A stretch of 64,000 bases of DNA, taken from contig BCGN01000009.1 of NCBI GenBank assembly GCA_001599295.1, forward strand, positions 558,001 through 622,000. Direction: 5' to 3'. Under the pieces are notes generated by a model, which was not told where the DNA came from, did no database searches, and saw only the letters and a list, made by a program, of their open reading frames with translations. A program made the position numbers and the translations under genes. The DNA comes from Sporopachydermia quercuum. Taxonomy: Eukaryota > Ascomycota > Sporopachydermiomycetes > Sporopachydermiales > Sporopachydermiaceae. This document shows, piece by piece, positions 8,680-55,858 of the stretch; the first letter of the stretch is position 1; the number at the start of each line of letters is the position of its first letter.

Positions 8680-10725
8680 TTATTGCTGAAGGCCACTCAA
8701 GTTAGCAATCTTTATACTGAGAGCTCTTTTCATGAACTGTTCTCTTGCAAGCATGCGTGTATGCTAATAAAGAGTGAATCTATGTTAGTATCAATAAATA
8801 GCAAGGCAAATAGCAAATAACAATAACAAATTACTTCGTCCTGCATCTATGCTTACCTTCATAAACTGACTGAGAGAAATCTTTCCACTATCCAAACCTT
8901 TACTAAGGTAGTAAATAGTATCCCCAATAGCATGATCTTCTGCTACCACGTCGTGTAATCTGATTGTTAACACTGTTAGTATTTGTTTGAGTTCAAAAAG
9001 CAGAAAATCCTTATGCTTCCACATTCCATCTATCAACAAAACACGAGACATCATAACTTACTGGTTATATACAACTGTCTCAGCACAGAGAATATCATCT
9101 ACAGATGGCTCTTCTCTACTATTAGCATCAGTTATCACTTTCCTAGCATTACTGATCCTTTCTTCTAATATGCCCATATTACATTCAATTACCTCCATCA
9201 GCTTTTCCCCGTTGTCTTCTTCAATCTTCGCGGTACTTTCTAGTTGAGCCACTGACGATTTCAACGTCTTTATCCGATTCTCAGTGCTATGAATCTCTGG
9301 CTCAATCTCTGTAGAAAGTAAATTAATTAATCCTGACTCGATTTCCACTATTATGTTGTTTCTTTTCTCTTCATTCTCTAACTGGGATTTGATCTGTCCA
9401 GTTCCCATGTCCATGATATCTGGTGCTTCAGGCTTTGGTGGCTGGTGTTTCAAGCTTGGTTGCATAGACGGAAGCGTAGAACTGATATTGTTGATNCTGG
9501 TGCTACCACCAGGATAGTTATAGTTGGTGGAGATGCCATGCGCCTGGTCTACTATAGGCACAGCGGGGGATCTCAATGGGCTCCGTATAGGGCTTCTAAC
9601 AGGGCTTCTCATGCCGGGAAGTTGCGGCTGAGGTTTGAAATAAGCAGGCTTGGAACTATCACCCCCTGTAGGACTACTGATTTGAGCCGATATTGTTGAT
9701 ATAGGACTTGCGTTAGGACCAAGGTTTACGGGAGATTGGGCTCTATTGGGTTTTGGAGGTAACGGTGGTACTTTTGGTGCCTCGGCAAAGGTCTGAAAGC
9801 CTGGTTTAGAAATGGCCTGAGAATACTGTTGTGGTTGTTGTTGTTGTTGCTGTTGCTGTTGATTGGAGCTCTGACTATTATAGGATTCTAAGGGTGGTCT
9901 ATTAGGTTGCTGATACAGCTGAACATTATGGAACTGTGAATAACTAGGCGATGCTGTAAATGCCGATTTGCTGATTAAAGGAGGCTCCTGCGAGAAAGCA
10001 ATTGTCAATTGCTTGATAAGCTCTGTTATTGAGGATTGCTGCTGGATTCGTTAGTATGAATTATTGCTATCATTGCTTTTACCGCCTTTATGCCTTTATG
10101 TTCCTCTCTATCATCAGCCATAAACTTGACCCAACGCTTGCATGTATACTTACAGGGTTATCTCTCCAGAAGGAAATAAAAGGATGAAATATTTTGCTGT
10201 TGGTATCGACATAATTTCCCGGCAAAACAAGCAGCGAGTTATCGGGTGTAATGTATCCAAAAGGTGCTAATTGAGGGTACTCCTTGGGTATCCATATCTC
10301 AACAGGTACTCTTGGGATTGATCCTTCTTGCACAGGAATCGTTCCATAAATGCATAGTAAAAGCTGAGAGTAACCAGTTTCCGAGGCTAGACTATGTTAG
10401 TAAAATAAAGGATTTTGATAACCAGCAAGAATAAAAAAGCAATAAACTGTTGAAATTATATCAATCGCTAGAACAGAGATACATAGGCATAGATACTTAC
10501 TGTAAACACGAGTTCTAGGACGTAAAGTAGGAAACGTCTGCAGACAATGAGCAACATGTTGATATGTTGTTTGGACGTCTTTATACTCCTAAATTTTTGG
10601 TGATGTTAGCAATTCATGCAGTAGGAATTCAATTGACAACGATGATGTATCGCCTAACGGATACTTACAGGTGTCAGTACTTTGTAGAGCCAGTCAAGAA
10701 GCTCGGGGGGTAAATTAGGAGCCAT
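8680..10725 (-). CDS. STP22: ESCRT-I subunit Vps23/Stp22 (TSG101), six exons
   Basis: Spliced by hand, from the 5' end: 10725-10669, 10588-10501, 10386-10154, 10041-9062, 8959-8857, 8763-8680; 514 residues. The joins preserve frame and yield the family sequence: an N-terminal UEV domain (about 1-145; TTYQHV, LRPRTRVYT, IWIPKEYP, GNYVD), a Pro/Gln-rich linker with a poly-Gln run and PPLPPKP, a coiled coil (about 315-425) and a C-terminal steadiness box (VVAEDHAIGDTIYYL, then LAREQFMKRAL). Donors are GTAAGT four times and GTAAGC once; branch points are GCTAAC or TACTAAC 8-25 nt before the acceptors. In the family it binds ubiquitinated cargo and Vps27 at endosomes for multivesicular-body sorting. 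Five introns are many for a budding-yeast gene. The exon-4 acceptor is a CAGCAG tandem, so one Gln is optional. Confidence 0.94.
9834..9862. repeat. CAA/CAG trinucleotide repeat in STP22
   Basis: Coding-strand CAA/CAG repeat giving nine consecutive Gln in the linker between the UEV domain and the coiled coil. Mixed codons suggest it is fairly stable, but length variation between isolates is likely. Confidence 0.8.
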
Positions 10726-12502: not shown

Positions 12503-13624
12503 AAAGCATTAACTATCATAGAAGTGAACAATTAATATAAGAAATATAATGGAGAATTAGGTGTGAAGTATTATCCGTTTTAATGTAATGTAGTCAGCAG
12601 AAAAGTAAATATTCGAATCCCCTATAATCCTCGATTACTTCTACAATCTTGCTTCTACAGTTAAATCCACGTAAACGAAAGTTCGATGAATCAAACAAAA
12701 CATATATTCGACAATTTATATACAGGAAATGTAGTAGACCACGACCACTAAGATTTCAACTCTCGAAAACCTAATGCTATTCTCAAAGATCCACACGATC
12801 CACACAATGAAAGAACTCACGAGGTAATGTAAGGGTACATTCTGTGGCTTAATCTTCTCCATAACCAGAACCCAAGAGCTATTGATAATATTTCAGTCAA
12901 TTGGGGCAGAAACAGGAGTTTTGATAAGAAGAAAATAGATGTTAAAATAATGTAAAAAGTAATCCAGTGAAGGGAACATGATGTTGAAACAAAAACACTC
13001 GATGATGAGCTTCGCTGTATTCGTGCTATATAATTAGTCGACTCATTTAGTTTGGTTAGTACACAATTTGATGTGAATTCAAAGGTCAGGAAAGGCCAAT
13101 AACATCTAGAATGATGAATTGGAGTAACTAGAATATTGATAGCAATTGGAAATGAACTAATAGTAAAAGGGACTTTGATGGAAAAGAAGAAACTTGCATG
13201 AAAATTTGTAATTTATAGTGGAACTCTGATTTAACGAGGTTCGCAGGTATGATATATACAACAGTATGTAATATTGGACACGGTCATGGTGATGAAGGAA
13301 TTACAAGGATATTGAGAAGTTATGACTGGAGGCCCACACAAAAAGTTCTAACAGCCACTTAGCTTGTTCTGACTTGTACTTGCTGAGATTAAATCCTGTA
13401 CCAAAAACGTGACCTGAAGGTTCTTCTCCTGCTCGCTGGCCTAGATTACGAATCTCATCGCTAATATCGCATTCCCGTTATAGTCATAGTGGATAAACGG
13501 TAGCTTAACCATTTTACTAAATAGCAGAATCCCAATTGACACGTACAACTATCTACAAAACTGGCACAGGGTTTAGTCTTACACAAGAAAGCATCTCTCT
13601 TTCACAGCCACAACAGAAATTATC
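12503..13624. other. Intergenic region between VMA9 and the membrane-protein gene
   Basis: AT-rich, with frequent stops in all frames. I found no tRNA, splice-site pair or repeat of note. Confidence 0.6.
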
Positions 13625-20233: not shown

Positions 20234-20330
20234 GGGAGTGTGGCCGAGTGGTCTAAGGCGCCAGCTTCAGGTTTTGTTCTTGAGTTTGCTGGTCTCGAAA
20301 GAGGCGTGAGTTCGAACCTCACCGCTCTCA
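20234..20330 (+). tRNA. tRNA-Leu (CAG anticodon) with a 15-nt intron
   Basis: A 97-nt gene that folds as a class II tRNA. The acceptor stem GGGAGTG pairs with CGCTCTC (two wobbles). A leucine-type D arm has a GCC/GGC stem and GTGGTCTAAG loop. Anticodon stem CCAGC (20261-20265) pairs with GCTGG (20288-20292); there is a long variable arm TCTC-GAAA-GAG and a T arm GTGAG-TTCGAAC-CTCAC. Anticodon CAG is at 20268-20270, T33 precedes it, and the discriminator is A, all leucine features (serine CUG-reassigned tRNAs carry G73 and often G33). The loop has 22 nt, implying a 15-nt intron (20272-20286) after position 37. Intron CTTGA (20279-20283) can pair with the TCAGG of the anticodon region, the canonical pre-tRNA pairing. 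Confidence 0.93.
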
Positions 20331-28718: not shown

Positions 28719-30908
28719 ATGAATGCTCACACACCTAGCAACATAGCAGGCAGTAATACACTGCATTCAATCAACTTCACACCTAACAATGAATCACCGA
28801 ATACGCCTGCAACATTACCATTGATAAATTCCTCAGCATCAACGTCAGTATCAAATGCTGTTTTATCTCCTACTACTTCTGGTATCAATGCATCGATTGC
28901 AATATCACCAGAATTTGCAGCAGTGGACTCCACACTAATTGCCCAGCAGATGATATCAGCTAATCATACAGAACAAAAACGACCCCTAGCATCAGAACGA
29001 CATTTCCAGACAACAAAACAGAAAAGTAAACGTTTGAAAAGAAATTCAGCTGAATATCAGGAGAAAGAAAGGAAAATCCTATTAGCTAAGAAGGAATTCG
29101 AGGAATCTGGTAGGAAAATACCAGTAAGGCATCTTTCAGCGAAATATTCAATAGCAAAATCTTCATTGTATGATAGGCTGAAGCTGAAGAATCCATCAAA
29201 GAGCTATTTGGAAGCTCATGAGAAACAACAGAAGCTAAGAAAAGTAGAAGAAGAATTGCTGATGTATTATATAGAGTGCCAGCTATGTGTGTCTATGAGA
29301 CCTACTAAGGCTGTTCTGGAGAGTTTAGCAGAAGATATCCTGCTTATTAGAAACAGACGTTATGGGCAGTGCAAGGAACATAGAGAGAATGAAGAACATA
29401 CTGAAAATGAGGATGCTATAAGAAAGATATATGATGCTAGTAGCAAAGAAAACATCGACGAACTGAATAATATCGAAAATGCTGAAAATGACAAAGGTAG
29501 CATTGATTCCAATGGTTATACAGCCAGGACAAAAGTAGNCGTTGATAGTGAATTACTGGATATTTCTAATAGTCTGAATGATGTTGGTGCAATGACGTCG
29601 CCATCTAATTCCAACGATCAAATTGATAACGCTGGTAGTGCCAATGACAAGAATATTACTAATACAAATGGCTCAGGTGATGTCAGCATGAATATCAACC
29701 CAGAATTAACATCACTTCCCCATTCTTCCTTCTATATCCCAAGTGCTCCTGTTAGCGAACGAATTGAGCAGGAATCACAAAATGCTGCACTACCCACAAC
29801 AACACACAATCGCTCTTACAATATCTCCAATCAAAGCCCAAACGTCATCACTAATATCAACACCATATCTAACACGCCTACCGCTTGTTCTACCAGTTTC
29901 AACCCTCTGACTCAAATAGGTAAGAATTGGTTCATAAGATTCAAAGAACGGTATCAACGAAGACAATTTGGCCCTGGTTATTTAATGGACTTCCTTTCCA
30001 TGGATACGTACAACGTAACTTGCAAATTAACACCAGAATTGTATATATATTCATGGCTTGAAAGAACAATCAATATGTTTTACATAACTCCGGATCACGT
30101 GATCTGTGTTTATGAAACTTGTGACCTGACCTCAAAGACAAATCAATGTTCCATAATTGAATCTGTGACATTGGAACAAAAATATCTGACACCTTTGTTT
30201 GTGTTCAAAAAGGAAACCAAACGTCAGGACAAAGACGACAATTTCATTAATACTAGAATCTATAGTGAGAATGATGATAATATTAGAGATCAGAACACAT
30301 CAGCAAGTACTGCCTTGACAAACGGTGAGAACACTTCAAATGTCCCTATTATTTACACAGACAGTGGATTTATTTCACCATTACAATCAATCCACTGGTT
30401 AGAAACGGTTATTACACCATACATTACCGATGGGCAACCTACTGTCATTAGTACAGCCAAAAGTAAGAGTACGGTGAATACATCAGCTCCATCAAAGAAG
30501 TATTCGTTATTACTAATAGAAAACTCAATGATAAATATTCTCTCTTCAGAATTTATAGCCAAGTGCAAGGAGTCCAAGATAATACTTTTCTTTGTCTCTT
30601 CGTTCGATCGGTACTTCAAGAAGAATGGTAAAGCAATAGAAAACTTTTGGGACAAGCAACAATCAAAGCAAGTTGGAACAAGCAGTACAAGTATGGATCG
30701 CTCTTCTAGCATAAAGGTTCCTATTCTTTGGAAGTTTTCTTATGGCTTACTTGCAAAGCTCAAGCAAAAGCAGATTCAGCTGTTACTGAATAATGAACAT
30801 GACTATGTGAAGCATTATCTGAGTATACGACGAGCTATTATTGATCGGCAGGACAACATGAGCAAAACCGAATCATCAAGAACTTCTGGTGATTTCCCAA
30901 TTGAATAG
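28719..30908 (+). CDS. CENP-B/pogo transposase-derived protein
   Basis: A 729-residue intact frame. A psq-type helix-turn-helix (about 105-165; ILLAKKEFEESGRKIPVRHL followed by AKSSLYDRL) leads into a CENP-B-type HTH (EEELLMYYIECQL). That HTH is interrupted by an acidic, Asn/Ser-rich insertion of about 180 residues and resumes at IGKNWFIRFKERY (about 400-415). A DDE_1-like region follows (about 420-680). Where active pogo/Fot enzymes have the DETG and LLLDN motifs, this protein has VYETC and LLLIEN, so the catalytic acids look lost. Intact length, absence of terminal inverted repeats that I could see, and single copy in the window suggest a domesticated DNA-binding protein, in the manner of yeast Pdc2 or fission-yeast Abp1/Cbh. 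The in-frame TTG at 28695 is ignored; the start is the ATG at 28719. Confidence 0.8.
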   Translation: MNAHTPSNIAGSNTLHSINFTPNNESPNTPATLPLINSSASTSVSNAVLSPTTSGINASIAISPEFAAVDSTLIAQQMISANHTEQKRPLASERHFQTTKQKSKRLKRNSAEYQEKERKILLAKKEFEESGRKIPVRHLSAKYSIAKSSLYDRLKLKNPSKSYLEAHEKQQKLRKVEEELLMYYIECQLCVSMRPTKAVLESLAEDILLIRNRRYGQCKEHRENEEHTENEDAIRKIYDASSKENIDELNNIENAENDKGSIDSNGYTARTKVXVDSELLDISNSLNDVGAMTSPSNSNDQIDNAGSANDKNITNTNGSGDVSMNINPELTSLPHSSFYIPSAPVSERIEQESQNAALPTTTHNRSYNISNQSPNVITNINTISNTPTACSTSFNPLTQIGKNWFIRFKERYQRRQFGPGYLMDFLSMDTYNVTCKLTPELYIYSWLERTINMFYITPDHVICVYETCDLTSKTNQCSIIESVTLEQKYLTPLFVFKKETKRQDKDDNFINTRIYSENDDNIRDQNTSASTALTNGENTSNVPIIYTDSGFISPLQSIHWLETVITPYITDGQPTVISTAKSKSTVNTSAPSKKYSLLLIENSMINILSSEFIAKCKESKIILFFVSSFDRYFKKNGKAIENFWDKQQSKQVGTSSTSMDRSSSIKVPILWKFSYGLLAKLKQKQIQLLLNNEHDYVKHYLSIRRAIIDRQDNMSKTESSRTSGDFPIE

Positions 30909-34813: not shown

Positions 34814-35581
34814 TTACTTGTCTTCCTTCTTTTCTTCTTCTTTCGTTTCCTCCTCGACTTTTCCCTTAAGTTCTTCTTTTAATCCTTCTGCTTCTTCAGG
34901 TTCATCTTCTTCATTCACAAAATAATCAAGAGCACTAGTGAATGATTCTAAAGGTGAAATACCGACCTTACTAACAGCAATCTTACCATCTTTGATAATC
35001 CAGTGTGATCTCACAATACCTTTAGGATTTTTTTTTGCTCCAAGAGGGCCGATCAAATTGTAGTTAGGATCAGATAACAGAGAGTATGGCAACTTTTGCT
35101 TAGTTTGGAAGTTCTTTTGAGCTTTTGGCGAATCAGCAGATAATCCAAATACCTTTACATTCTTCTGTTCAAACTTCGGATAACTATCCCTAAATCCACA
35201 AGCTTGCTATATTAATTGTTAGTTAGTACATTAATCATTCTATATCAACATACTATCCAATCAATTGAGTTAGCAACATACCTTAGTACAACCAGGAGTA
35301 CTTGCTTTTGGATAAGCAAAAATTACAACTAACGGATTCTCCTTAACAACTTCAGTTAAGTTGACTTCATTCTCATCTTCATCTAACAATACCAAATCAG
35401 GTAAACTGTCACCTACAACCAATTTCGTTGTCTTCTTTCCAGCTCCAGTGTTTGAAGAGGAAGCTGAAGCTGAAGGTTTGGCTTTCTTAGCCGGTTTCGA
35501 TGGTTCGACATCTTCAACAGGTTCATCTGTTGTTTTCTTAGCTTGAGCGCTTATTCTTGTTGATCTTCGTAGTGTAGTCAT
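34814..35581 (-). CDS. DOT5: Nuclear peroxiredoxin Dot5 (BCP/PrxQ type), two exons
   Basis: Exons 35581-35282 and 35206-34814 join in frame to 230 residues. The N-terminus is basic (LRRSTRIS, then KPAKKAKP), fitting a nuclear protein. The peroxiredoxin domain (about 55-205) carries KASTPGCT with the peroxidatic Cys98, and QACGFRD with Cys103. This five-residue spacing is the atypical 2-Cys arrangement of Dot5/PrxQ. The C-terminal 25 residues are a Lys/Glu tail. Dot5 is a nuclear thiol peroxidase acting on alkyl hydroperoxides and was also found as a disruptor of telomeric silencing. The 74-nt intron (GTATGT, TACTAACTAAC, ATAG) falls exactly between the codons for Lys100 and Gln101, between the two active cysteines. 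Confidence 0.94.
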
Positions 35582-37335: not shown

Positions 37336-38278
37336 CTATAAATCTATTCGCAACGCAACCCAGAAATCCGATACTATCTTCCTCTTAGAATTCATCACAA
37401 CAGGGTTAAACCCAATCCAATGAAAATCGTTCATTATTCTTTTTAACTGGCTTACATTACGATCAACAAATACTAAAATACTTTCACAATGAAGAGAATC
37501 AATGGCAAGATCCAACAACGCGATAATCCTTTGCTTGAACCCGAACTTCCAATTAACTTTTGGTGTCTTATTCGATTTACCTGATATCTTCTCTTCCCCT
37601 TCAATCATTCCTTTAGTCAAGAATAGGTGAAGAACATCGTGTTCAATAAATCCTATCCATTCTTCATCACCATTATAATCAAACAGCTTGAAATAGCTCC
37701 TCAGCTCAAAGTTTGATGATCCGTGAATTCTCCTACAAAGAGAACTTGTTGATGTACTTGATTCCATTGAATATGATCTTACTTTTGATGATACTACCTC
37801 CTCTTTCTCTAGTCGATCAAAAAATGCATTTGATTCACTGAATATGCTAGTTTCAGCACTATAGCCAATGCTACTATAACTATTCTGTCGATACTCATTT
37901 ATGAATCCTTGCGTTGATTGACTTTCATAGCTGGAGATAACTTCCTCGCTATACTTAATACCTGTAATCGATATCCCTTGACTACAAAACCTCTCACATT
38001 TTATTGCCAGGTCTCTCGATGCCCTTTTTATATCGTCGATGTTGAGATGTGAATCTTTATGCATCATCGAAAAGGGTCTTTCAAGTTTCGTTTCAGGAGC
38101 GCCAATCTGCTGTTTGACCATCGCAACTGATATATTTGAACTCCTGAAAGGAGTCACTGTTATATGTGAAGCATGATGCTAATGTAGTCGATGAGGGTGA
38201 ATATTGTTTTACAGGATAGTTGTTGGTGAAATCTTCAACGTTATCATCACCGGTATTGTTTAGAAGTAAATCAGCCAT
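37336..38278 (-). CDS. OAZ1: Ornithine decarboxylase antizyme, +1 programmed frameshift
   Basis: Two overlapping frames. ORF1 runs from the ATG at 38278 for 61 codons and ends ...TGG CGC TCC TGA AAC, with the TGA at 38095-38093. ORF2, in the +1 frame, is open to 37336. Reading TCC, skipping one T and continuing with GAA (38094) gives a 313-residue protein; S. cerevisiae Oaz1 has 292. The C-terminal domain (about 175-313) has antizyme hallmarks: WIGFIEHDVLHLFL, an LLDLAIDSL helix, and VFVDRN followed by the WIGFNPV strand. The slip site TCC-TGA is the one used by mammalian and fission-yeast antizymes (S. cerevisiae uses GCG-TGA). In the family, polyamines promote the shift, and antizyme binds ornithine decarboxylase monomers and delivers them to the proteasome. 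The target gene SPE1 is at 44479. Confidence 0.92.
38093..38098 (-). promoter_or_regulatory. Recoding site TCC-TGA of OAZ1
   Basis: The last sense codon TCC (Ser61) and the ORF1 stop TGA. Skipping the T of TGA places the ribosome in ORF2, whose continuation ETKLERPFS leads to the conserved antizyme domain. The base after TGA is A. Stimulatory elements are expected in flanking mRNA but cannot be seen by eye. Confidence 0.88.
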
Positions 38279-41200
38279 TTTGATCTAGTTTTATAAAAAT
38301 ATTCTCTTTTTTCTTATTTCCCTATTATTNACTGCTGAGTGAGCTGCCGATATACGTCTTATTATGTGTTGTAAAACTCGATTGGATTGGAATTTACTAA
38401 CTTGATGATACAGTTTTGCTTTTGAGCAAAATATGATCTAGGTATTCAATTTTTCTTATGATTTCTTCATACGATCTATTTTGATATTTACTAGTTCACT
38501 ATTATCTATGCGAGTTGACTATCGTGCTTATCAATTCACTTACCGTTCATATCAGATTCTCCTGTTCTCGTTCACTGGTTTGTTGATGTAGAGAAGAAAA
38601 GAAACAAATGCCCACGAAGGTCTCGTGCGACCGAAAAGGATAAGGGTATTTTTCCCTTCTTTGGCGAGCGTTTTGTGTGAAGTTGGCGATGGGAAAGTAA
38701 GAGATTTAATAATGATTAGAGGTTAATTGAGTCAGATAACACAATTTGTTTTTTCTTTAATAAAAACACACCTTTCATCATAAATATATTAAATATAATA
38801 GGAAATGTTCCTATTTAAACAGCTATATTCGATGCAAAGATGAATAAATTGAGCTGAAATATGATAAGGTTTGGATAATATGCAATAAGATGTAGTTTAC
38901 GGCCATATTATTGCTCCTGCATGCTATCCTAGAATCTCTCATCTATTTGACATTTTAACAATCTTCATACGGAAAATACATCATAGCTTCTATAGCTAGT
39001 CAAATATGGGTAGTTTATCTCTTCTTATAGGTAAGTCGGCAAAACTAGAATAAATGAGACTTTTAGAAGTATGTCCTAGAATTTGAAAACTAAACCAAAA
39101 TGTGGTCCAATTGAAGCAAAAAGTCATTATGCAGCAATAATGCAAGATCTATACAGCTCTAAATAACTTTATTATGATAAGCATTATAAATGAGTTGAGT
39201 AGAAGAAGAGGAAGAAATGGCGATCTGATACATCCAGAATTGTAATCAAAAGGTTATATTGATGAATAATATCCAGATATTGATCTATCTATTGAGTGGA
39301 ATCATAAATGAGAATAACTGCTAGTTGATTTGGTTGATAGTTTGAGCGCGAAACCATTTAGTTAGCAGGAACTCAATCGATAAGAGTCGTTCATATAAAA
39401 GATAGATTTCTCATGAATTCATAAATTGAAAAGAAAACCTTCTGAGAACAAATACTAATAAATATAATCCGGTGTTAAATACTTTTTAAAAGGATTTATA
39501 TTAACATAGTCCGATTCTATATAATCCTTCCTCTACTCGATCTGGTCTCGCTACTTGCATACTGAGATGAGAAAGCTCAGTTTTTCATCTGCGTTCACCA
39601 TTTGGTGTAGATGCTTCAACTAACAACAGCACTCACAGCTTAAACTAGTATTTGATCCAACCAAATCGGCAGATCGTCATAGCATTTTCGAAATTCTTTG
39701 TTTTAATTCCCTATAACCGTCAGTCTACGAGCTCAGATTGCCTTGTGTTTTTGATGGTTGGCGATTTCTTCCAGCCACTTCATTTGGCTAATTATTGCTG
39801 AATCTTAAGGCAGCAGCAGTAACGATGGTAACCACAGGCGCAAATGGAGTCATATAAATTTATTCCAAATTAAGATGCGCAGTTTGCAAGTAAATTTATC
39901 GAACAGTTATTGTTCAAATGATATCTAGTGACAATCAAACAGCAGATCAGCTCAAGAAGAATTCTGCTTAGTGTGTATCCACCTTTGCATCAACTTACAT
40001 ACTACAACTTCTACCAAATATAGCAATTCATATGGCTCGTCGTATTCAACTAAACAATTATCTGATTTAATACCAATATTCTCCAAAATCTAACAGGAGT
40101 CCCTTAATTTCTCCTCGTACTCTTCCATCAATAAAACTAGCCAATTATCTCACTATTATACATCAACAACCCAACTCTTCTCATAAGTTTCCCATTTCAT
40201 ATTCAATTTACAATTTACAACCTACAGTCTCATTATAAGATACCTGTTCTATCCTGTATTTTTCTGTATTTTATAAATATTATCTGATACTACTGAAGGC
40301 CATCTCTATTTATTCAATTTTTACTATTCCATCGTAATCTCGATCTCGATCTCGATCTCGATCTCAATCTCTATATCTCCGCCCACCAATATCATCGTAT
40401 CATTCCTTCTTCTTCTATCATCATGAAACAAGAAGCCATCGGATAATTATCTAGAATAAAGCTTATTTCTATTATGCACACACTAGCATACATTATCCTG
40501 TCCTGATTTGTTCAGATCAAAGCTCTTTGAGGAAATTATCCATTAAACCTCAGAAAGGTAATGGCTGGTCATCCGATTGGGAACTTTTCTCTAAACTCTA
40601 TTAGCTTGTACTAACTCAATCAATCATCAAAACTTAATTCAGTCATTTTTTAACTTGATTGATCTCACCTGCCATCTTTAATTATGAGATGATTGAATTG
40701 GCCAGAAAACCAGCTAAATGGATCAAATAAGTATTGAATTGAATAAATAGAAAGATGGTTCTTGATTTCATTTTGAATTGGTTTTTACTTCTTTCTTTCA
40801 TTCTTTCTACTTGAAAGTTGTTTTGCTTTTTCTTTGTCTTGTTGGAATGAAGTATTTACTCGGGATCACATCATAGTAAAGTGAAGAGCAACAGGTTTGC
40901 ATAGCATTCTCAATCAAAGGAAGAAGAAATCGTATCAGATCAAATCAAACTAAGTCTAGCAACGGATAAAAGGCTCTCTGGCTTTCAAACAACAAAACAG
41001 ATTTCTACTTACACTGTTTTCAAATTCGCATTTAAGGAAATTCCAACTCATTGTCTTTCGTTTACTTCTCATCACCATTTCAAACAAGAAAGCAAGATCA
41101 ACGATTCGATCAAGCTTTGTTAGAAATTCCTAGTTCAGTCAATCAACTTACTTCATTCATTAATTGAACTAAGATATTCCAGTAAAATATTATCGGTGAC

Positions 41201-41416: not shown

Positions 41417-42949
41417 ATGTTCAGTTCTGAGAACGATAAGGCCCTTAACAAAACGAAATCAATGGCAACTGTATCTCTTCCTGCTTTGGCAACATCATTT
41501 ATGCCTTCATCTATGATCCTGTCAAGATCTAACCAACGTCATAATCAACATCATAATCATAATCATAACTATTCGCACACTGAGCAACGAAATCACCATC
41601 AAATAAATCAGTCTCATCCTGGATATAGCTTGAAGAAAAGTAATTCAGAGTCTCAATCTCAATCAACTAATTCTTCCCCACGTTTGATACCTTCTGAAGA
41701 AATGACCTCGATAGTCTCTTCGAATAAACAGCTAGCAACGTCTTTATTAGACGAAGACGCAGCTATTAATACCACAACCACTAAACCTGCTGTTATCTAT
41801 AATGAAAATGGGATTGTATCAACAAAGAAAAATTCCGAAATGGTAGAAGAACATGCAGTCGTTTCTGATAACGAACAAGATCCTAAACCGTTGGACGAAA
41901 AGCAGCAAAAATTGGAAAGTACCAAGTTATTCTGGCAAAACTGGACTTACATTTCAACTGTGAATCAAACTCGTCGTCCTATAAATAGGAATTTTGTTCC
42001 CCGTGAATCTAATACAAGATCCACTCCAAGCACATCTCCTTCTCCTAGTTCCTTACCAGGATCAGAAGATGCAGAGCTGGCACCTTTTTCAATGCTTTAC
42101 CCTGATACAGCTCCTGGTGATATATGGAGGCCAGAACTTGAAGCCTGGGCAATGAGATCTCATCCTGCCACTTTCAAGACTATCAAAGCTATTCCGGGAT
42201 CAACAGAAGACAAACCCGATCTTGGGAACTTCAAGAACTTGAAACGAAGAAGAACTGAAGAAACCAACAGTGAATATAGCTTTTCTCCTAGTGCCAAGAG
42301 ACAAGCATTGGGTTTGATAGATCCACTGAGAAGAAAGTCATGGACGGCTCATGACAAGAATAATACATCCAAGGTTATGTTTTTGCTTAATGAAGAAGAC
42401 AAGCAATCTGTAGGTAGCAATGGAGGTTCAAGCACTGTTAATATAGCGAATTCTGCAATAGATATGGGCAATTCTGGTAGCACTCCTCCTCATTCACCAA
42501 AGAGCAACGATGTTGATGTACACTATACACCTGGTAAGAACTATACGTATTACATTCCTTACCGGGCAAAGATCAATCGTCCTGGTAAAGCAGAAGAAGA
42601 CGGTTCAACGGAGACAACATCACCAAAGATGAAAACACCCAAATCTCCTAAATCTCCCAAATGTCCAAAATCTCCTTCAGGAAGAAAGTGTGCTTCTTGT
42701 GGTTCTGACCAATCGCCTTGTTGGAGACCATCTTGGTCCATAGCTGCTGGACAGTTATGTAACAGCTGTGGTCTTCGTTATAAGAAAACTGGTGCCAGAT
42801 GTATGAATGAGAAATGCTTAAAGATTCCCGCTAAAGGTGAATGGAGCCTAATGAATACAAGGGGGAAGGTGCTAATCAGAGATAATCATTATGGTTTGGT
42901 GTGCCTGCATTGTGGAAGTGAAGTTGAAGTTCAGCAGCGGAAACAATGA
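41417..42949 (+). CDS. ASH1: GATA-type zinc-finger regulator, Ash1-like
   Basis: A 510-residue protein with a long low-complexity N-terminus rich in Ser, Asn, His and Pro. Near the C-terminus (about 424-500) is an atypical GATA finger: [16 protein letters not shown] followed by [13 protein letters not shown]. The CWRPSW core with a [11 protein letters not shown] second half is what I recall for Ash1 proteins, and the trailing [15 protein letters not shown] segment with a later CLHCG pair also fits. [13 protein letters not shown] stretch precedes the finger. Ash1 in S. cerevisiae is a daughter-cell repressor of HO, and in other yeasts it controls filamentous or pseudohyphal growth. The exact orthology is my judgement from the finger; another member of the GATA family is possible. 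It lies between OAZ1 and SPE1. Confidence 0.78.
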
Positions 42950-44478: not shown

Positions 44479-45915
44479 ATGGCTCCTCATATATCAGAAA
44501 TTAATAATGAAGTAGAATCATTTGATCATGGATCTCGATTTGATTATTTGATTAATGAGAAAGAGTTATCCTTAGGGCAAAAATCTCTGTTACCCTTACT
44601 TGAGAAATTTACTGTTGATCATAGCAGAATACAAGCTAAATCAAATGAAGAGATTGCCAAGGAGAATTATGCTAAGTTATTAATTGGAAATGCATTAGAA
44701 AATCACATTAAATGTATTGATGCAGAAACTTGCGACGCTTCTGAAGAAGATTCCTTTTTCGTTGCCGATTTGGGTGAAGTATACCGTCTTTTTCTTCGAT
44801 GGAAAAAGTTGTTACCAAGAGTTCAACCATTCTATGCAGTGAAATGCAACCCTGACCCAGTTGTATTGTCCTTACTTAGTTCTTTAGGTACTGGATTCGA
44901 TTGTGCTTCAAAGAACGAAATCGATCGCGTATTGAAACTTGGTGTGGATCCTACGAGAATCGTTTATGCCAACCCCTGTAAAGTTGCCAGTTATATCAGA
45001 TATGCTGCTTCAAAGCAAGTGTCATTAATGACCTTTGACAATGCTGATGAATTATACAAACTTAGAAAGTATTATCCTGATGCAAGATTATTGCTCAGAA
45101 TCTCAACCGATGACTCTGAAGCTCAATGTCAATTGTCTAACAAGTATGGTGCTTCTTTATATGCTGGTAGTCAACTTTTGGAACTTGCTAAAGCTCTTGA
45201 CTTATCAGTTGTTGGTTGCTCTTTCCATGTCGGCTCAGGAGCTACTTCTTTGGAACCATGGCAAAAAGCTATTCGCGATTGTCACGAGATCTTCGAATTA
45301 GGAAAGAGACTTGGTTTTGATATGAACCTATTGGATATTGGTGGAGGATTTGTTGCTTCCAGCTTTTCAGAGGTTGCACAGTTTGTAAGCCCCTTCCTTG
45401 ATCATTATTTCCCTGAAGAGTCCAATGTTTCTATTATTGCCGAGCCTGGTCGTTATTTTGTTGCTGATGGTTTCACAATGGCTTCTCATGTCATTGCTAA
45501 GCGTGACGTTGACGATGCGTCCAACAGAAGCATGATCTATCTCAACGATGGTGTGTATAAGAACTTGAATTGTATCTTATTTGATCATCAAGTTCCTGTA
45601 CCAAAAGTTCTAACCTACAACGGTGAATTCAAATACTTTGAATCTGAATCACTTCATGAACAAAACATGAATTCCACTGATGGCGTTGGCTCTTATACCT
45701 GTTCTATCTGGGGTCCAACCTGTGACGGTTTGGATTGTATTTCAAAATCTTGTAAATTGACTTATTCCTTACAAGCTGGAGATTGGATGTATTTCTCTAA
45801 TTTGGGTGCTTATACTTGTGCTGCTACCACACAGTTTAATGGTTTTGAAGGTGAATGTGGTATCATTTATGTCTGTTCTGAACCAGGCATTGCGAAAGAT
45901 TTGAATTTGAATTGA
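44479..45915 (+). CDS. SPE1: Ornithine decarboxylase
   Basis: A 478-residue fold-III PLP decarboxylase. The PLP-binding Lys is in PFYAVKCNPDP (about residue 122). FHVGSGA, the Gly-rich LLDIGGGF and AEPGRY contact the cofactor phosphate, and WGPTCDGLD carries the catalytic Cys near residue 415 with the substrate-binding Asp next to it. It decarboxylates ornithine to putrescine, the first committed step of polyamine synthesis, as a cytosolic homodimer. The N-terminal extension of about 90 residues before the barrel fits yeast enzymes. The frame opens upstream with a TTG at 44437; the first ATG is at 44479. Its regulator OAZ1 is about 6 kb away on the opposite strand. Codon choice looks biased to favoured codons, as for a well-expressed gene. 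Confidence 0.97.
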   Translation: MAPHISEINNEVESFDHGSRFDYLINEKELSLGQKSLLPLLEKFTVDHSRIQAKSNEEIAKENYAKLLIGNALENHIKCIDAETCDASEEDSFFVADLGEVYRLFLRWKKLLPRVQPFYAVKCNPDPVVLSLLSSLGTGFDCASKNEIDRVLKLGVDPTRIVYANPCKVASYIRYAASKQVSLMTFDNADELYKLRKYYPDARLLLRISTDDSEAQCQLSNKYGASLYAGSQLLELAKALDLSVVGCSFHVGSGATSLEPWQKAIRDCHEIFELGKRLGFDMNLLDIGGGFVASSFSEVAQFVSPFLDHYFPEESNVSIIAEPGRYFVADGFTMASHVIAKRDVDDASNRSMIYLNDGVYKNLNCILFDHQVPVPKVLTYNGEFKYFESESLHEQNMNSTDGVGSYTCSIWGPTCDGLDCISKSCKLTYSLQAGDWMYFSNLGAYTCAATTQFNGFEGECGIIYVCSEPGIAKDLNLN

Positions 45916-48628: not shown

Positions 48629-50419
48629 CTAATTACCAAACTCACTTAATCTTCTAGCAATATGTTGAATAGTATGATCATGATCAGCTTCTTCTACTGC
48701 CTTCTTAAATCTACTCTTGATTCTCTCTTTTTCTTGTTCCTCAAACTGACCCATTACGGGTGGCATACTTTCATTAGCCATATCCATAGTCTTGGCTTCT
48801 TCGAAAGAGTGAATGGCATTCTTGATACCTTCTGATCCCAACATCAGCGTACCAGAAGGTAGCTTTCCACCAAGTTTGGCCTTCAATTCGCTAACTTGTT
48901 CAGATTCACCACGCAAAACTTGAAACATCCTAGACATTCTGCCAATTGCGAGGACCTTGTTTCTTAGTGCTTTCCTTTTAGCTGCTGATAATCTTCCACT
49001 TGCCCCTCCTTTATCTGTCTCATCAGTTTCAGCGGTTTCATCAGCATTTTCACTAACATCTGTAGGTCCAACACTTTCATCACGTTTTAGTTTAGAAGCT
49101 TCTGATGGCANTTGTGACGCTTCAGCTGATAGTACACGTTCCAAAGGAATTACTTCATCCAGCTCTTCCTGCGTGCACACGTTCAAAATTGCCATAAGCA
49201 TTTGAGTGACTTTCTCACCAATGAAAGGCAATGACCATGAAAATACATCCATATACTTAGGCAAACGATAAGGGTGTGGAGAACAGTTGAATTGTCTGAC
49301 GTTCATAATATTATTCTCATATTTCAAAATAGCTGCCCTATTATCAAAACTATCAACGTAATTAGGAGCAGAAAATAGCGTAAGCAATGATGGAAATCCC
49401 ATTTTCTCTGTAGCTTTATACATTCTATAGCCTTGTGATTGGACCTCATGAGCTCTGATAACTGACAGTAAGTTATTACGTTCCAAAAACTTACAAACAC
49501 CGCGATACGAGTAAGCATAAGAACAACCTCTTAGGTTATTTACACTGAAATCTCGGGCACTCAAATTGCGATCATAGTCTTCTAGAGGATCAGACCATAA
49601 GATATCACACATCATACCTTTAGTTGGAGGTTCTCTAAATCTATCAATCTTTCTTACGTCATCAATGGTTTGAGCTTCAGGTGATAGCCCACCGTGACAA
49701 CAGAAGAACTGCTTGTTGACATGGGCGGCTAATGGTAAACAATCAAAAGAATCACAGAATACTTCGTAAGTGCCCAGATTGTACTTATAGTTACATTCTG
49801 CCTTAAATGTAAAGTATTCAGTTAAATGTCTACATTCATGATTACCTCTTAACAGGAAGAACGAATCAGGATAAGTGATCTTCAAAGAATAAAGGTATAG
49901 CACACATTCACATGAATAATCACCACGGTCAACATAATCACCAAGAAACAAATACCTGCAATCAGCAGGATCGCCACCAACCTCTAACAGCTTGAGCAAA
50001 TCATAATATTGACCATGAATATCACCACATATAGTTATGGGAGCAGGAAGGGTCAATACAGTTTCTTCAGCACGAAATATACTTTCTGCTGCCGATACAA
50101 TCTTGGTTACTTGGCTTTCTGATAATCTTCCTTCATGAAAAAAATGATCTCGCAGAAATTCAAGATTGGGTTTACCGTCTTCTTGAAAGACTTCACTGTC
50201 TTCAGGTATCTTAGAAGCAGGATATGGTACCGATGTTACTATACGATTTTTTGTTGATACTTCAGTTCCATCTTCTCTTATGAATACACTGAAATCACGT
50301 TGCACTTCATTATGTTTCTTTGCATGGACCGCTTTGATGGTCTTCTCCACACGATCACCTACATCTAAAGTACTATGGTCAGGCACCACAAATGAAGGAG
50401 TAGAGCTTCGGTCTTCCAT
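48629..50419 (-). CDS. CNA1: Calcineurin A catalytic subunit
   Basis: A 596-residue PP2B phosphatase. Metallophosphatase motifs occur in order: GDIHGQ (about 131), GDYVDRG (about 160), GNHECR (about 195), then HGGLSPE and SAPNY. A calcineurin B-binding helix follows, then an acidic linker, the basic calmodulin-binding segment [20 protein letters not shown] (about 475-495) and an autoinhibitory helix ([16 protein letters not shown]). The enzyme is activated by Ca2+/calmodulin and calcineurin B and dephosphorylates Crz1 and other targets in ion stress, cell-wall stress and mating survival. The ATG at 50419 gives a normal N-terminus, with no intron seen. One ambiguous base lies in the linker. 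Yeasts with a genome duplication have two copies (CNA1, CMP2); only one appears here. Confidence 0.97.
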
Positions 50420-51439
50420 GATGTGTTGATTTACTGGTTATGAGTAATCCCTGTTCAATTTGATGTTAGTAAATTACATCCAAATGCTATTATCTTGACA
50501 CTCTTTTGAATAAAGGGTATTGNAATTATTCCATTTACACAANGGACACTTTACAGTATCTTCAATTGCCAAGAACAGAACAATACCACTCATACTAACC
50601 TTTCAATTATATTCCTTTCTTGAATGCAACACTAGCAATTGTTAATATAACTACTCTACAAAGTCATTTAATATATGTCATTCACTGATTATTGTTTTAA
50701 CTGGCCACTCAAGCTTTCGTTTCTTCTCAAACAATGAACGGAAGCAATCAATTGTTTTAGTGGTGACACAAGGTAAAACTGGCTGCAGTTTAATGCAGTT
50801 ATCGGTCAAGTGATGTGTCTTAAAATAGGAAGCAACTACTGTGTTAGTAGCATTTTATGCATGAGTATGCAGAGTCAAAAATGGTGGAACTTTACGTCTA
50901 CCCCAACAGTTGATGGATATAATCTGGAATTCTAAGCAAAGGCCAGGTTAATACTGAAAAATTTCAGATTATTATTGGTGGTTCTGGTCCAAGAATAATT
51001 TGCCCTCAAACTTGGTTCTCTATAAAAAAATACATAGAACACCTTGTCAATTCAATACGCTCATTACCGCATCTGCCCTAATTAACACCGGTCGTTTATG
51101 TAACCTTTCCAACCTTATTTTATCTCCGCAATTTTACGATTACATACACGAATGTTAGGGATATTATTATATCTTCACATAATCTCCGAAATTTTATCTC
51201 TATTTTCCTTTAACCAAAAAAATTTTAATTACTATGCAAAACAATCAGCTATCAGATTTCATGAGAAATAACAGCTGCTTCAGCGTTTAATCCTTAGGGA
51301 ATCATCAAAACTTTTATTCCTCGTCAAGCATTGGAAGAACTGTTCTTTATTCGTCAGTTCATGACCTTCAGTACTACGCTTATTGCATTCCATTTCAACT
51401 ATCACCATTCATCATAAATCCTTTATTTACCACATAAAC
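50420..51439. other. Divergent CNA1/TSR2 intergenic region
   Basis: 1 kb of AT-rich DNA between divergent genes. It carries an RRPE-like AAAAATTTT at 51218-51226, on the TSR2 side. No other gene recognised. Confidence 0.6.
51218..51226. promoter_or_regulatory. RRPE-like motif upstream of TSR2
   Basis: AAAAATTTT, the core of the ribosomal RNA processing element bound by Stb3, about 214 bp before the TSR2 ATG. In AT-rich DNA such a string is not rare, so the support comes mostly from its position before a ribosome-biogenesis gene. Confidence 0.3.
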
Positions 51440-52078
51440 ATGGCTGACAGTTTTGTTGAAACGAACAAGAAAACACTTGCCTTCGAAGGCAAAGTTCAGA
51501 AGCGATTTGAGTTGGGTGTCTGTATGGCATTGTACAATTGGAATGAGCTGACTATAGCTGTTGAAAATCAATGGGGTGGTGCTGATTCTAGTGATAAGCG
51601 TGATTGGCTTATTGGTACAGTTATTGACTTATTCCTTGAGAATAACGTCATGGATGCAGCCTCTATTGAAGATAGACTATTGGATATTATGGATGTTGAA
51701 TTTGGTGTTGGTTTGGAAGACGATTCTGCCTGGGAAGTTGGTTTGAAGGTGATTGAAATATATAAGCAATGTGCTCTTGAGAATTTCGTCATGGTCGATG
51801 AAATGTATGAAAAGTACCAAACAAAGCAGGCCAAGAATAGCAGTGCGAATGTTGTAGTTGTAGACGAAAATGGTGCACCTGCTAGTGATGATGATGAGGA
51901 TGAAGATGGGGATTATAACAAGGAAGAAAACGGTCAGGAAAGAGTATCTAATGACAATTACAATAATGATAAGGAGAACATTGAAATGATGGATGTCGAA
52001 CCAGAAGTTCAAGGTCCAATAATAGATGATGATGGGTTTGAATTGGTTCAAAAGAAAGGCAAAGGAAGAAGAAGGTGA
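51440..52078 (+). CDS. TSR2: Ribosomal protein eS26 escortin Tsr2
   Basis: A 212-residue protein. The conserved domain (about 12-125) has the family WNELTIAVENQWGG (WGG at 45-47), DWLIGTVIDLF and DVEFGVGLEDDSAWEVG, typical of Tsr2 helices. The C-terminus is strongly acidic (DDDEDEDGD) and closes with DDDGFELVQKKGKGRRR, also a family feature. In yeast, Tsr2 releases Rps26 from its importin in the nucleus and hands it to pre-40S particles; it is needed for 20S pre-rRNA processing. The frame is open upstream from a TTG at 51383, but the first ATG is at 51440 and matches the family start (MADS). Confidence 0.94.
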   Translation: MADSFVETNKKTLAFEGKVQKRFELGVCMALYNWNELTIAVENQWGGADSSDKRDWLIGTVIDLFLENNVMDAASIEDRLLDIMDVEFGVGLEDDSAWEVGLKVIEIYKQCALENFVMVDEMYEKYQTKQAKNSSANVVVVDENGAPASDDDEDEDGDYNKEENGQERVSNDNYNNDKENIEMMDVEPEVQGPIIDDDGFELVQKKGKGRRR

Positions 52079-53131
52079 AGGTGAAGATGAAAAGAGTTGG
52101 TGGTTGGTTGTTAATTGCTATTAGTTTGTAGATATAGGATAAGGCATAGGATAGTAAGAGAGAATGATAGAAACAGTAGGATTATTATATGTACGTACAT
52201 GAGAAGAATAAAAGATAGATGTATGGCGATAACATATTGAAGTAAACGATTAAACGGAAGTTCGTGTTAATTCAACGATAGAGCGCTTTGAATTTAAACC
52301 AAGAGAACAAGGTGCTGAAGCGTCAGACAGAGTCAATTATAGTAATCAAATGGTTACTCATCAGCCACTGGTGAGTTTGATCCTAATAAGAAATGTTTTA
52401 TGATACATGAGCCAGAGTGCAATGTAGTTGTAACAATAATCTGAAATATTGCCAAAGAGACAAGGAGATACTCTTCACTGTAAAAGATTGCAATAATGAT
52501 CAATGTGATTATTATCAATTACGGTAAATGTTGTATAAATTGCAAGTTGAGCTGAAGTCAACTAGATAATGATGCAACAAGAATGCACCATTGTCTTCTT
52601 CGGCTATTTTTGATCAAAGCCTTGTTCCGTCTCTTCCTTCTGTTTTCAGTTGATGGAAACTCATNGACAAATTGTTTACAATTATTTCGTGAACTACTCG
52701 ATATAATTCGGTACTCTTTCATGTAATAGCATCTCATACATTATTATATATTCTATGACTTTCCATTAAACCATTCAAAGTAGTTTCACTTGTCGAACAA
52801 CTCTTCCACTTCTTTCTACGTCGTAAATCGTCATGTAAATGTAATAAAGCACTGAATCCTTCGTATTCTTCTGTTTATTGTTGTCCTTACTACTATTGTG
52901 CTCACTCTACGCCATGCCATTATTCTTTGAGTTAATACTCATGCGTAGCATAGTTATTAAATGAAATTGATCCATTCGATGTACCAGGGCCACTAGGCTA
53001 AGAGATAGGTCAAATCCTAGCGGTACCCTTGGCTTGTTAGATATTAGCTAATCAGATATTACAGCAATTAACAACTATATTTCTCTCTTTTCACTCGCTT
53101 ATCCTCTGTGGCATATCAACGTTTTAGGTCC
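52079..53131. other. TSR2/HID1-like convergent intergenic region
   Basis: Non-coding. A short interrupted inverted repeat lies at 52981-53026: GTACC pairs with GGTAC outside, CTAGG with CCTAG inside, around an 18-nt loop. No tRNA or snoRNA was recognised; the loop superficially resembles a T arm but lacks the rest of a tRNA. Confidence 0.5.
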
Positions 53132-55858
53132 TCATCTTCGTTCAAAACCTTTCAGGACTTTGTCGGCAATTGCATCTACAGCCCCCTGAGGTTGTAGCAA
53201 ACTGACATTTCTTTTCCCCGTTGCTNGCACTCTGAACATCCTGATCTTGGTTCCAGAGAATATCTTGACATTGATAATGTCTTTAATACTGGTAGTAGTG
53301 CTAGCATTGTCACCACTATTAGTACTACTGCTCGTGTTATTCCCGNGAAATCCAAATTTAAACCCAGATATAGAAATTGGTAGATTGAAAGAGAAATCAG
53401 TGATTCCATCAACTGATTTCAACTCATTTTCAAATATTGATATCCAAATAATTGACTTGTACCATTTAAACAACTGACTAGTCCATTTGAATTGAATACA
53501 ATTAGTATGCTGATAAGTAGATATAACGGTTTCTGGCAGTAACACAGTTAACGGTAGTTCTCGGATCTTTTCGATATATTCGAATGAGTAAGGAGCATTA
53601 ATTGCTGCTGCAGGGTTCTTAGTAGAATCAGTACTTCTAGCAGTATCTCTTGTTGTAGATGCTGGAAGAATATTGCTATTCGCTTGAGAATTAACATACA
53701 AATTCTGCTTTATGCTGGCAATGAGTTTTAATAGGATTGGTACATTTTTAGGCATAGAAACCGTATCATTAGTGATTTTCTGTTTCCCGAGTGAGTTTCT
53801 GCTTGGAATACTTGAGGATTGGTTATTCTTACCGGAATTTGAAGTGGACGAATAAGAAGATTCAATTGAATTTCTTTCGTTGTTTCCATGATTTATTGAG
53901 CTTTCAGGATCAACAAACCCTCTTCTTCTTTCATTCTCTTCAAAGAAGCTTTCCTCGATTTCAAGGTTCTTGTATTCTCCATTGTATTTATCTAAACATC
54001 TTGTCAAAGAGTCATATAGATATTCCAATGTTTTTTCATTGTTCATTATAGTGAACGTAACAATTACGTTGTCGTGATAGTTATTGATTATCATTAGGCA
54101 AACAGCTTCGAATAAATACTCAACCAGTTTGAATCTGCTACTGCTGATAGCAAGATCGTTAGTAATAGCAGTCGTGCTATTGCCATTAGCAGAATTAATG
54201 GTAGAAACACTATTCGATCTAGCTTTATTACTGTTGCTAATCCTTCTGACCAAATGGCCTTCTTTACAAAACTCCTGTAGGAGATTGAGTATGGACTGAA
54301 TTGAGGTAATTGTATATAATTTACCATTGATTGATAAATTATAAATACATTTAATCAAGTCTGGTACTAATAAATATAAATTATTGCTATTATTGTTGAT
54401 TCCAGCTTTAATCAATGAATAAACCACGGTAATAAGCAAATCGTAGTATGAGCCATTGAACGAATTGATATTGAATTCAATTGGCGATAAATATGTCAGG
54501 GAAGGTGACTTGCCATAATAAGCACGCAAATCGTCCTGAGTGACTGCCGTTGAAACTGCTTGAATAACAGTTGGAAATGTTGATAAATAAACTAGAATAC
54601 TAGCAGATATCCTTGATAGATTTATATCAATAGCTGGTGAATTGCCATTGGCAGCACTACTTGCAGTATCAATAAACGTCCTGAGATAGGACTTGTTANT
54701 ACTATTGTAGTCTGTTGATTTACCAATAATAGCTAACAAACTATTGAATAAACTAATGATATCTTCACGGCTGCTCAGAACGTAATTCCTTAACTTTTTG
54801 TTGCATTGAATTAACTCCCAAACCAGTATCACTGTATCTTTTGCCGCCTTGGACGAGATTAGCCCTTTAAGTCCGTCCCACAGATACTCCAGTTCAGGCT
54901 GTTTATGAATTTTGCTTGTATAATAACGAACCATGTTCTGCTGCTCATCATTCGTATATACTAGTAGAATATTCAGAATCTCTTGACAGTGTATTACTAG
55001 CTGGTTGTACGGTAAAGTTGTAGTACTGTTAAAGGTAGAAATACCATTACTACCATCGACAGTTAAGCCTTGGAATTTAAGAATAGTATTAAGCAGTGAA
55101 CAAGAGAGTAAAAGCAGCTTTACTTTATTGAGATTCATTAATATCCTCAAATAGTTGGATTCTTCTTCTTTATACATTCTCCTACTACTAATTACCAGAA
55201 TCAGACGCAAAGCCTCAATTCTATTCAAAAGTATTGCTTGAGATGTAGAGGAGACTGCTGATGCAGTTGCCAGAGAGTCTCCTGACCCGATTCCTTGTTC
55301 CCATAGACGATATTCAATTGCTGGCCTTCCGTCAGGCTCGCCGTGTTCCCCGCTTGGTGCAAGCTCATTGTCAATAGTAAATCCTTTGATGAATAGTAGA
55401 TCAATCGTAGCACTAACAAATGACTCGGCAAACGAAGAATCGTCTTTAATCCCTACAACTGTTTCTTCCCATCGTCTCAAATCGGAACCTTCTTCCTCGT
55501 ATATAAATGGAAATAGCCTTGTAAGAAGTCGTACGCAATTAAGCAGTTGGCTGTGGAGCTGACCAGAAGGAAGGGTATTGCTGGATGCACTCAGTGCAGG
55601 AGTTGTAGATGTTTCAGTATCTAGTGTGCTTAGTAGATATATCAGTCTTTTGATTAAAACTTCAATTAGAAGCTTGAAATTGCCGATATTTCGCGATCGC
55701 AGAAGGCGAATATCGTTATTTGTTAATGCTGAGAAAATATCTTGACATGATAGGTCAGCGGAGTAGAATCTGGCCCAATCGATCGAATTAGATGTCTTCG
55801 TGTTAATCAGCGTCGAGATATTCTCTTTAAGCAGAAGTTTGGACCCTTCAGCTCCCAT
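53132..55858 (-). CDS. HID1/Ecm30 family Golgi trafficking protein
   Basis: A 908-residue protein, largely helical. The N-terminus MGAEGSKLLLKENIS fits the HID1 start (MGxxxSKL.F) and is a good N-myristoylation signal (Gly2, Ser6). SCQDIFSALTNNDIRLLR and LLNCVRLLTRLFPFIYEE match the conserved N-terminal part of HID1, and VTVVYSLIKAGIN-like repeats and a C-terminal WFKSIIWISIFENEL-type segment fit the middle and end. HID1 proteins sit on the medial- and trans-Golgi and act in secretory or dense-core granule traffic; fission yeast Hid1/Ftp105 anchors a ubiquitin protease at the Golgi. The S. cerevisiae relative is Ecm30 (longer). Low-complexity Ser/Asn insertions near 600-720 are lineage-specific. 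Three ambiguous bases lie in the frame. Confidence 0.82.
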   Translation of the reverse strand: MGAEGSKLLLKENISTLINTKTSNSIDWARFYSADLSCQDIFSALTNNDIRLLRSRNIGNFKLLIEVLIKRLIYLLSTLDTETSTTPALSASSNTLPSGQLHSQLLNCVRLLTRLFPFIYEEEGSDLRRWEETVVGIKDDSSFAESFVSATIDLLFIKGFTIDNELAPSGEHGEPDGRPAIEYRLWEQGIGSGDSLATASAVSSTSQAILLNRIEALRLILVISSRRMYKEEESNYLRILMNLNKVKLLLLSCSLLNTILKFQGLTVDGSNGISTFNSTTTLPYNQLVIHCQEILNILLVYTNDEQQNMVRYYTSKIHKQPELEYLWDGLKGLISSKAAKDTVILVWELIQCNKKLRNYVLSSREDIISLFNSLLAIIGKSTDYNSXNKSYLRTFIDTASSAANGNSPAIDINLSRISASILVYLSTFPTVIQAVSTAVTQDDLRAYYGKSPSLTYLSPIEFNINSFNGSYYDLLITVVYSLIKAGINNNSNNLYLLVPDLIKCIYNLSINGKLYTITSIQSILNLLQEFCKEGHLVRRISNSNKARSNSVSTINSANGNSTTAITNDLAISSSRFKLVEYLFEAVCLMIINNYHDNVIVTFTIMNNEKTLEYLYDSLTRCLDKYNGEYKNLEIEESFFEENERRRGFVDPESSINHGNNERNSIESSYSSTSNSGKNNQSSSIPSRNSLGKQKITNDTVSMPKNVPILLKLIASIKQNLYVNSQANSNILPASTTRDTARSTDSTKNPAAAINAPYSFEYIEKIRELPLTVLLPETVISTYQHTNCIQFKWTSQLFKWYKSIIWISIFENELKSVDGITDFSFNLPISISGFKFGFXGNNTSSSTNSGDNASTTTSIKDIINVKIFSGTKIRMFRVXATGKRNVSLLQPQGAVDAIADKVLKGFERR

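Follow-up and report, generated by a model that had tools for sequence, protein, structure and literature searches.

A probable UCC_UGA +1 frameshift antizyme gene near the ornithine decarboxylase gene of the yeast Sporopachydermia quercuum

A 64,000-nucleotide stretch of Sporopachydermia quercuum DNA (the window) contains a minus-strand locus that, judged from its sequence, we consider to encode the one ornithine decarboxylase antizyme of this budding yeast, made through a UCC_UGA +1 frameshift, with a probability of about 0.9. A UCC_UGA antizyme in this species is not new in kind; the new point is the linkage of the gene to that of its expected target, ornithine decarboxylase (ODC).

Antizyme identity and the two reading frames

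Two overlapping frames, a shift site, an antizyme domain and a target gene are observed in the window (Table 1). ORF1 ends with the codons GAT TGG CGC TCC, followed by TGA and then A. The frame of ORF2 is +1 relative to ORF1, and joining the 61 residues of ORF1 to 252 residues from ORF2 gives a product of 313 residues. This joined product matched the Pfam ODC_AZ profile with an E value of 6e-13 and 49.1 bits, relative to a cut-off of 24.2. A six-frame search of the genome (16,393,282 bases in 12 contigs) returned the same part of the ORF2 frame as the sole ODC_AZ match (E 1e-12). These results bear out a preliminary description of this DNA, which had proposed an antizyme gene and would have been contradicted by a lack of profile-search similarity between ORF2 and antizymes; it was also right about the 61-codon ORF that ends in TCC-TGA-A and overlaps a +1 frame, coordinates included. 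An AlphaFold2 model of the 142-residue domain, run without an alignment, had a mean pLDDT of 41. The top Foldseek match of this low-confidence model in the PDB was a human antizyme fragment with ODC (4zgy_B; probability 0.89), at a non-significant E value of 0.16, and we therefore treat it as a weak hint. Searching the PDB with the ORF2 sequence gave two matches (best E 0.59), neither of them an antizyme, and no antizyme relatives were confirmed in viral and prokaryotic contig collections, where yeasts are not expected.

Table 1 Features of the antizyme locus and its surroundings, in window positions.
Feature	Position	Strand	Details and evidence
ORF1, 61 codons	38093..38278	-	ATG context ATCAAAATGGCT; end TGG CGC TCC TGA; coding score and direct reading
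Module-A-like 5' element plus site	38093..38104	-	TGGCGCTCCTGA; Trp codon two codons upstream of TCC
Shift site TCC-TGA-A	38092..38098	-	TCC 38098-38096, TGA 38095-38093, A 38092; P-site UCC, stop UGA, +1 codon GAA; read directly
ORF2 frame (+1), 280 open codons	37336..38178	-	without stops from 38178 to 37339, then TAG 37338-37336; post-shift antizyme coding 38094-37336
ORF2 in-frame ATG, upstream of shift site	38119..38121	-	possible internal start
ODC_AZ domain, product residues 194-312	37342..37698	-	Pfam PF02100 on joined product; six-frame genome search
Gene with intron 35281-35207	35581 to about 34814 (lower end by hand)	-	splicing reconstruction
GATA zinc-finger protein, encoded in the antizyme-ODC interval	41417..42949	+	PF00320 E 5e-8
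ODC, 478 aa, expected antizyme target	44479..45915	+	PF02784 E 7e-83; PF00278 E 4e-23; human ODC (1d7k) E 8e-113

Coding potential was scored after training and calibration on 16 other ORFs of the window, the same ORFs being used for both rather than a held-out set. On this reference the 5-95% range of true frames was 0.7 to 21.8, and the 95th percentile of wrong frames was 6.6. The first 33 codons of ORF1 scored 15.7 bits in their own frame, compared with -4.0 and -4.8 in the other frames. The 28-codon overlap is ambiguous, with a slight lean to ORF2 (6.1, against 1.6 for ORF1). For three stretches past the site, the +1 frame and frame 0 scored 7.1 and 6.5, 15.3 and 6.8, and 17.5 and 17.2 when stops were ignored, a clear +1 lead in one of the three; only the +1 frame stays open past the shift site. 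The preliminary description had expected a gene predictor to report two broken fragments, which we consider improbable. ORF2 has its own ATG (38121), and the usual gene-finding programs would probably annotate ORF2 alone, as a single plausible gene of 261 aa, and miss ORF1.

The shift site and other routes to the product

With its TGG-CGC-UCC-UGA end, ORF1 seems to belong to the widespread UCC type, in which a weak site is boosted by stimulatory elements, and not to the S. cerevisiae type. The 12-mer TGGYGYTCCTGA represents a vertebrate-like 5' element plus site. It occurs once in the window, at the end of ORF1, and in none of 100 shuffles. Genome-wide it occurs 10 times, versus 2 for the reversed pattern, and thus the 12-mer by itself proves nothing; what matters is its location at the antizyme frame junction. 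According to a 2016 review, a substantial majority of antizymes have a UCC_UGA site, and a Trp codon is conserved two codons before the shift site (PMC5009743). Both are present in the window gene, which therefore belongs with the majority type.

We infer frameshifting at this site, its control by polyamines and destruction of ODC brought about by the product. Most ribosomes on ORF1 would be expected to terminate at UGA after Ser61. A fraction would shift +1, with tRNA-Ser on UCC and the A site occupied by the stop codon, and would then read GAA as Glu62; this fraction would be expected to increase with the polyamine level. The resulting 313-residue antizyme would bind ODC, the product of the gene at 6.2 kb distance, and deliver it to the proteasome. 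A tRNA census found at least three gene copies of tRNA-Ser(AGA) and a gene for tRNA-Ala(CGC); it scored 63 of 959 candidates, so that a tRNA missing from it may still be encoded. The inosine form of tRNA-Ser(AGA) would read UCC. S. cerevisiae is described as being without tRNA-Ala(CGC) in the review (PMC5009743), and GCG would therefore be expected to be less shifty in S. quercuum than there. RNA folding around the site was scanned at 28 offsets with three window lengths, giving 84 overlapping folding windows, nine of which had z <= -2. One of the nine begins upstream of the site and has the lowest value of all 84 (-2.75), and the other eight begin at distances of 15 to 210 bases 3' of the first TCC base, with a minimum of -2.56 at a distance of 15. 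These values give a hint of 3' structure downstream of the shift site, with no convincing strong stem.

A -2 shift instead of +1 would add one residue to the product (Ser-Pro-Glu versus Ser-Glu). A tRNA-Ser with anticodon IGA can retain two of its three pairs whether it moves to GCU (-2) or to CCU (+1), as worked out by hand, and a mammalian antizyme cassette placed in S. cerevisiae shifts predominantly -2 (PMC5009743). The native S. cerevisiae antizyme, however, shifts +1 despite its potential for -2 re-pairing, according to the same review (PMC5009743), and +1 is the stated rule for the antizyme family in PMC2375905. We thus consider a -2 shift very unlikely.

The product could also arise through an intron that removes ORF1 or joins the frames. 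Such an intron can be drawn by hand from the sequence, with a GTAAGT donor directly after ATGAACG (ATG 38550), the sole candidate donor noticed, and an acceptor TATCAG near 38130; the resulting short exon would read into the ORF2 frame, so that no frameshift would be needed. GTAAGT stands 80 to 98 bases ahead of TACTAAC at 8981, 10056 and 10402 (minus strand), and therefore looks like a donor used by the species. However, no 7-mer between 38560 and 38120 that keeps the branch A matches TACTAAC at six or more positions, and none of 10 donor or branch patterns was found from 60 bases before to 300 bases after the ORF1 ATG. The neighbouring gene at 35581 downwards, which appears to encode a DOT5-like thiol peroxidase, shows by comparison a 75-base GTATGT/TACTAAC/TAG intron on the minus strand, which served as a positive control; its removal gives 230 residues, and use of a second acceptor gives 216. 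ORF1 would be intronic in the spliced reading. This fits poorly with the coding score that its first 33 codons reach in the ORF1 frame, and with its termination in a canonical antizyme site. Splicing in place of recoding is highly improbable on this evidence. The preliminary description had held that an intron joining the frames would overturn it; canonical intron signals were not found at the junction, and the clear intron lies 2.8 kb away. The GTAAGT after ATGAACG at 38550 could mark a leader intron, one that would have no good branch site. Two 4-codon upstream ORFs are present in the possible antizyme leader, at 38550-38536 and 38470-38456 (minus strand), and the first of them contains the GTAAGT.

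Leaky scanning to the ATG at 38121 would give a 261-aa antizyme, again with no frameshift. This start codon is in the ORF2 frame and is flanked by G at both -3 and +4. At the ORF1 start codon, however, the corresponding bases are A (-3) and G (+4), and between the two starts lie another two ATGs (38247 and 38174), closed by stops after 12 and 4 codons. Leaky scanning would also offer no reason for the presence of a UCC_UGA site with its 5' element, and we give it scant credence. Gene death or an error in sequencing has a negligible probability as the cause of the frame break: 45 Ns are scattered over the window and the base sequence may be imperfect, but the break sits exactly on a canonical antizyme shift site, neither frame is interrupted, and no other antizyme was found in the genome.

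Genomic setting and the ornithine decarboxylase gene

The single PF00278 match in the genome lies inside the window, in the ODC gene. This gene is divergent from antizyme ORF1, with the two starts 6.2 kb apart. Residue 83 of the ODC query aligns to residue 24 of 1d7k, indicating an N-terminal extension. ODC is followed by a gene with a weak pICln-like match (Voldacs), whose 21.9 bits fall marginally short of the 22.1 cut-off. In S. cerevisiae ASH1, SPE1 and LOT5 are neighbours, and the GATA gene is placed like ASH1 beside SPE1. The arrangement around ODC may thus be old, with the antizyme possibly a newcomer beside it. Genes of the spermidine/spermine synthase family (contigs C3 and C1) and for SAM decarboxylase (contig C7) are all off the antizyme contig. 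A post hoc calculation by hand puts the chance of two random genes lying this close in 16.4 Mb at about 0.08%. Nothing on antizyme-ODC linkage was found in the literature searched, which was covered partly by title and with most subscription journals outside coverage. The linkage is the most unusual point of the locus; it is seen in one genome and may be due to chance. We regard as unlikely the stronger proposal that antizyme and ODC form a linked polyamine-control locus held by selection, with an ancestral-type UCC sensor and not the nascent-peptide sensor of S. cerevisiae. Conservation of the linkage in relatives would make it an interesting pairing of regulator and target.

The assignment to budding yeasts made in the preliminary description is backed indirectly by the TACTAAC intron and by RPB2 similarity. 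A 976-residue part of RPB2 scored 1767 bits with 5x4z, above S. cerevisiae 1i3q (1684) and 3h0g (1655); 5x4z is from Komagataella and 3h0g from S. pombe. CTG makes up 105 of the 694 Leu codons in 16 ORFs. Reassignment of CTG was considered and rejected on this usage and on the calcineurin gene, where six of seven CTG codons fall, by eye, on Leu of the aligned PDB chains; the standard code therefore applies. Calcineurin A, TSR2 and HID1-family genes are consecutive at 48629-55858, a run that suggests conserved gene order, the S. cerevisiae order being CNA1-TSR2-ECM30. Rfam identified an snR43 H/ACA snoRNA (12727-12920, minus strand) and a 97-base tRNA match (20234-20330, plus strand); ARAGORN gave no tRNA in the window. 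The ORF at 28719-30908 (plus strand, 729 aa) has no Pfam match at E 0.001. The Ns in the window are nearly all single and are possibly heterozygous or masked bases.

Comparison with known antizymes

The S. quercuum gene shares with the UCC_UGA majority the ODC_AZ domain, two overlapping ORFs in a +1 relation, the UCC_UGA site and the Trp codon in the second position before it. It differs in the A after the stop, where mammals and fission yeast, according to the preliminary description, have T (TCC-TGA-T). UCC may be the ancestral slip codon, as that description proposed; the proposal fits the UCC_UGA majority described in PMC5009743.

Similarity to S. cerevisiae OAZ1 extends to the presence of one antizyme gene in a yeast. 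ORF1 of OAZ1 has 68 codons, similar to the 61 found here, and S. cerevisiae ODC is also N-terminally extended. The antizyme and ODC genes are on different chromosomes in S. cerevisiae, whereas they are near each other here. The OAZ1 type has GCG in the P site without a cognate tRNA-Ala(CGC); in S. quercuum the P-site codon is TCC and a tRNA-Ala(CGC) gene was found. The contrast between UCC_UGA_A here and GCG_UGA_C in S. cerevisiae, drawn in the preliminary description, agrees with the review, which describes regulation at GCG_UGA_C by the lowering of a high intrinsic shift rate (PMC5009743). In the S. cerevisiae type, a very shifty GCG site is restrained in a polyamine-dependent manner via the nascent peptide. 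The antizyme of Kluyveromyces (Lachancea) waltii has in common with that of S. quercuum a non-GCG site in a yeast with tRNA-Ala(CGC). Its site is CCG_UGA_C (PMC5009743). A budding yeast with the common UCC_UGA site would help to date when the S. cerevisiae line adopted GCG_UGA_C, along with a sensor acting by restraint of frameshifting.
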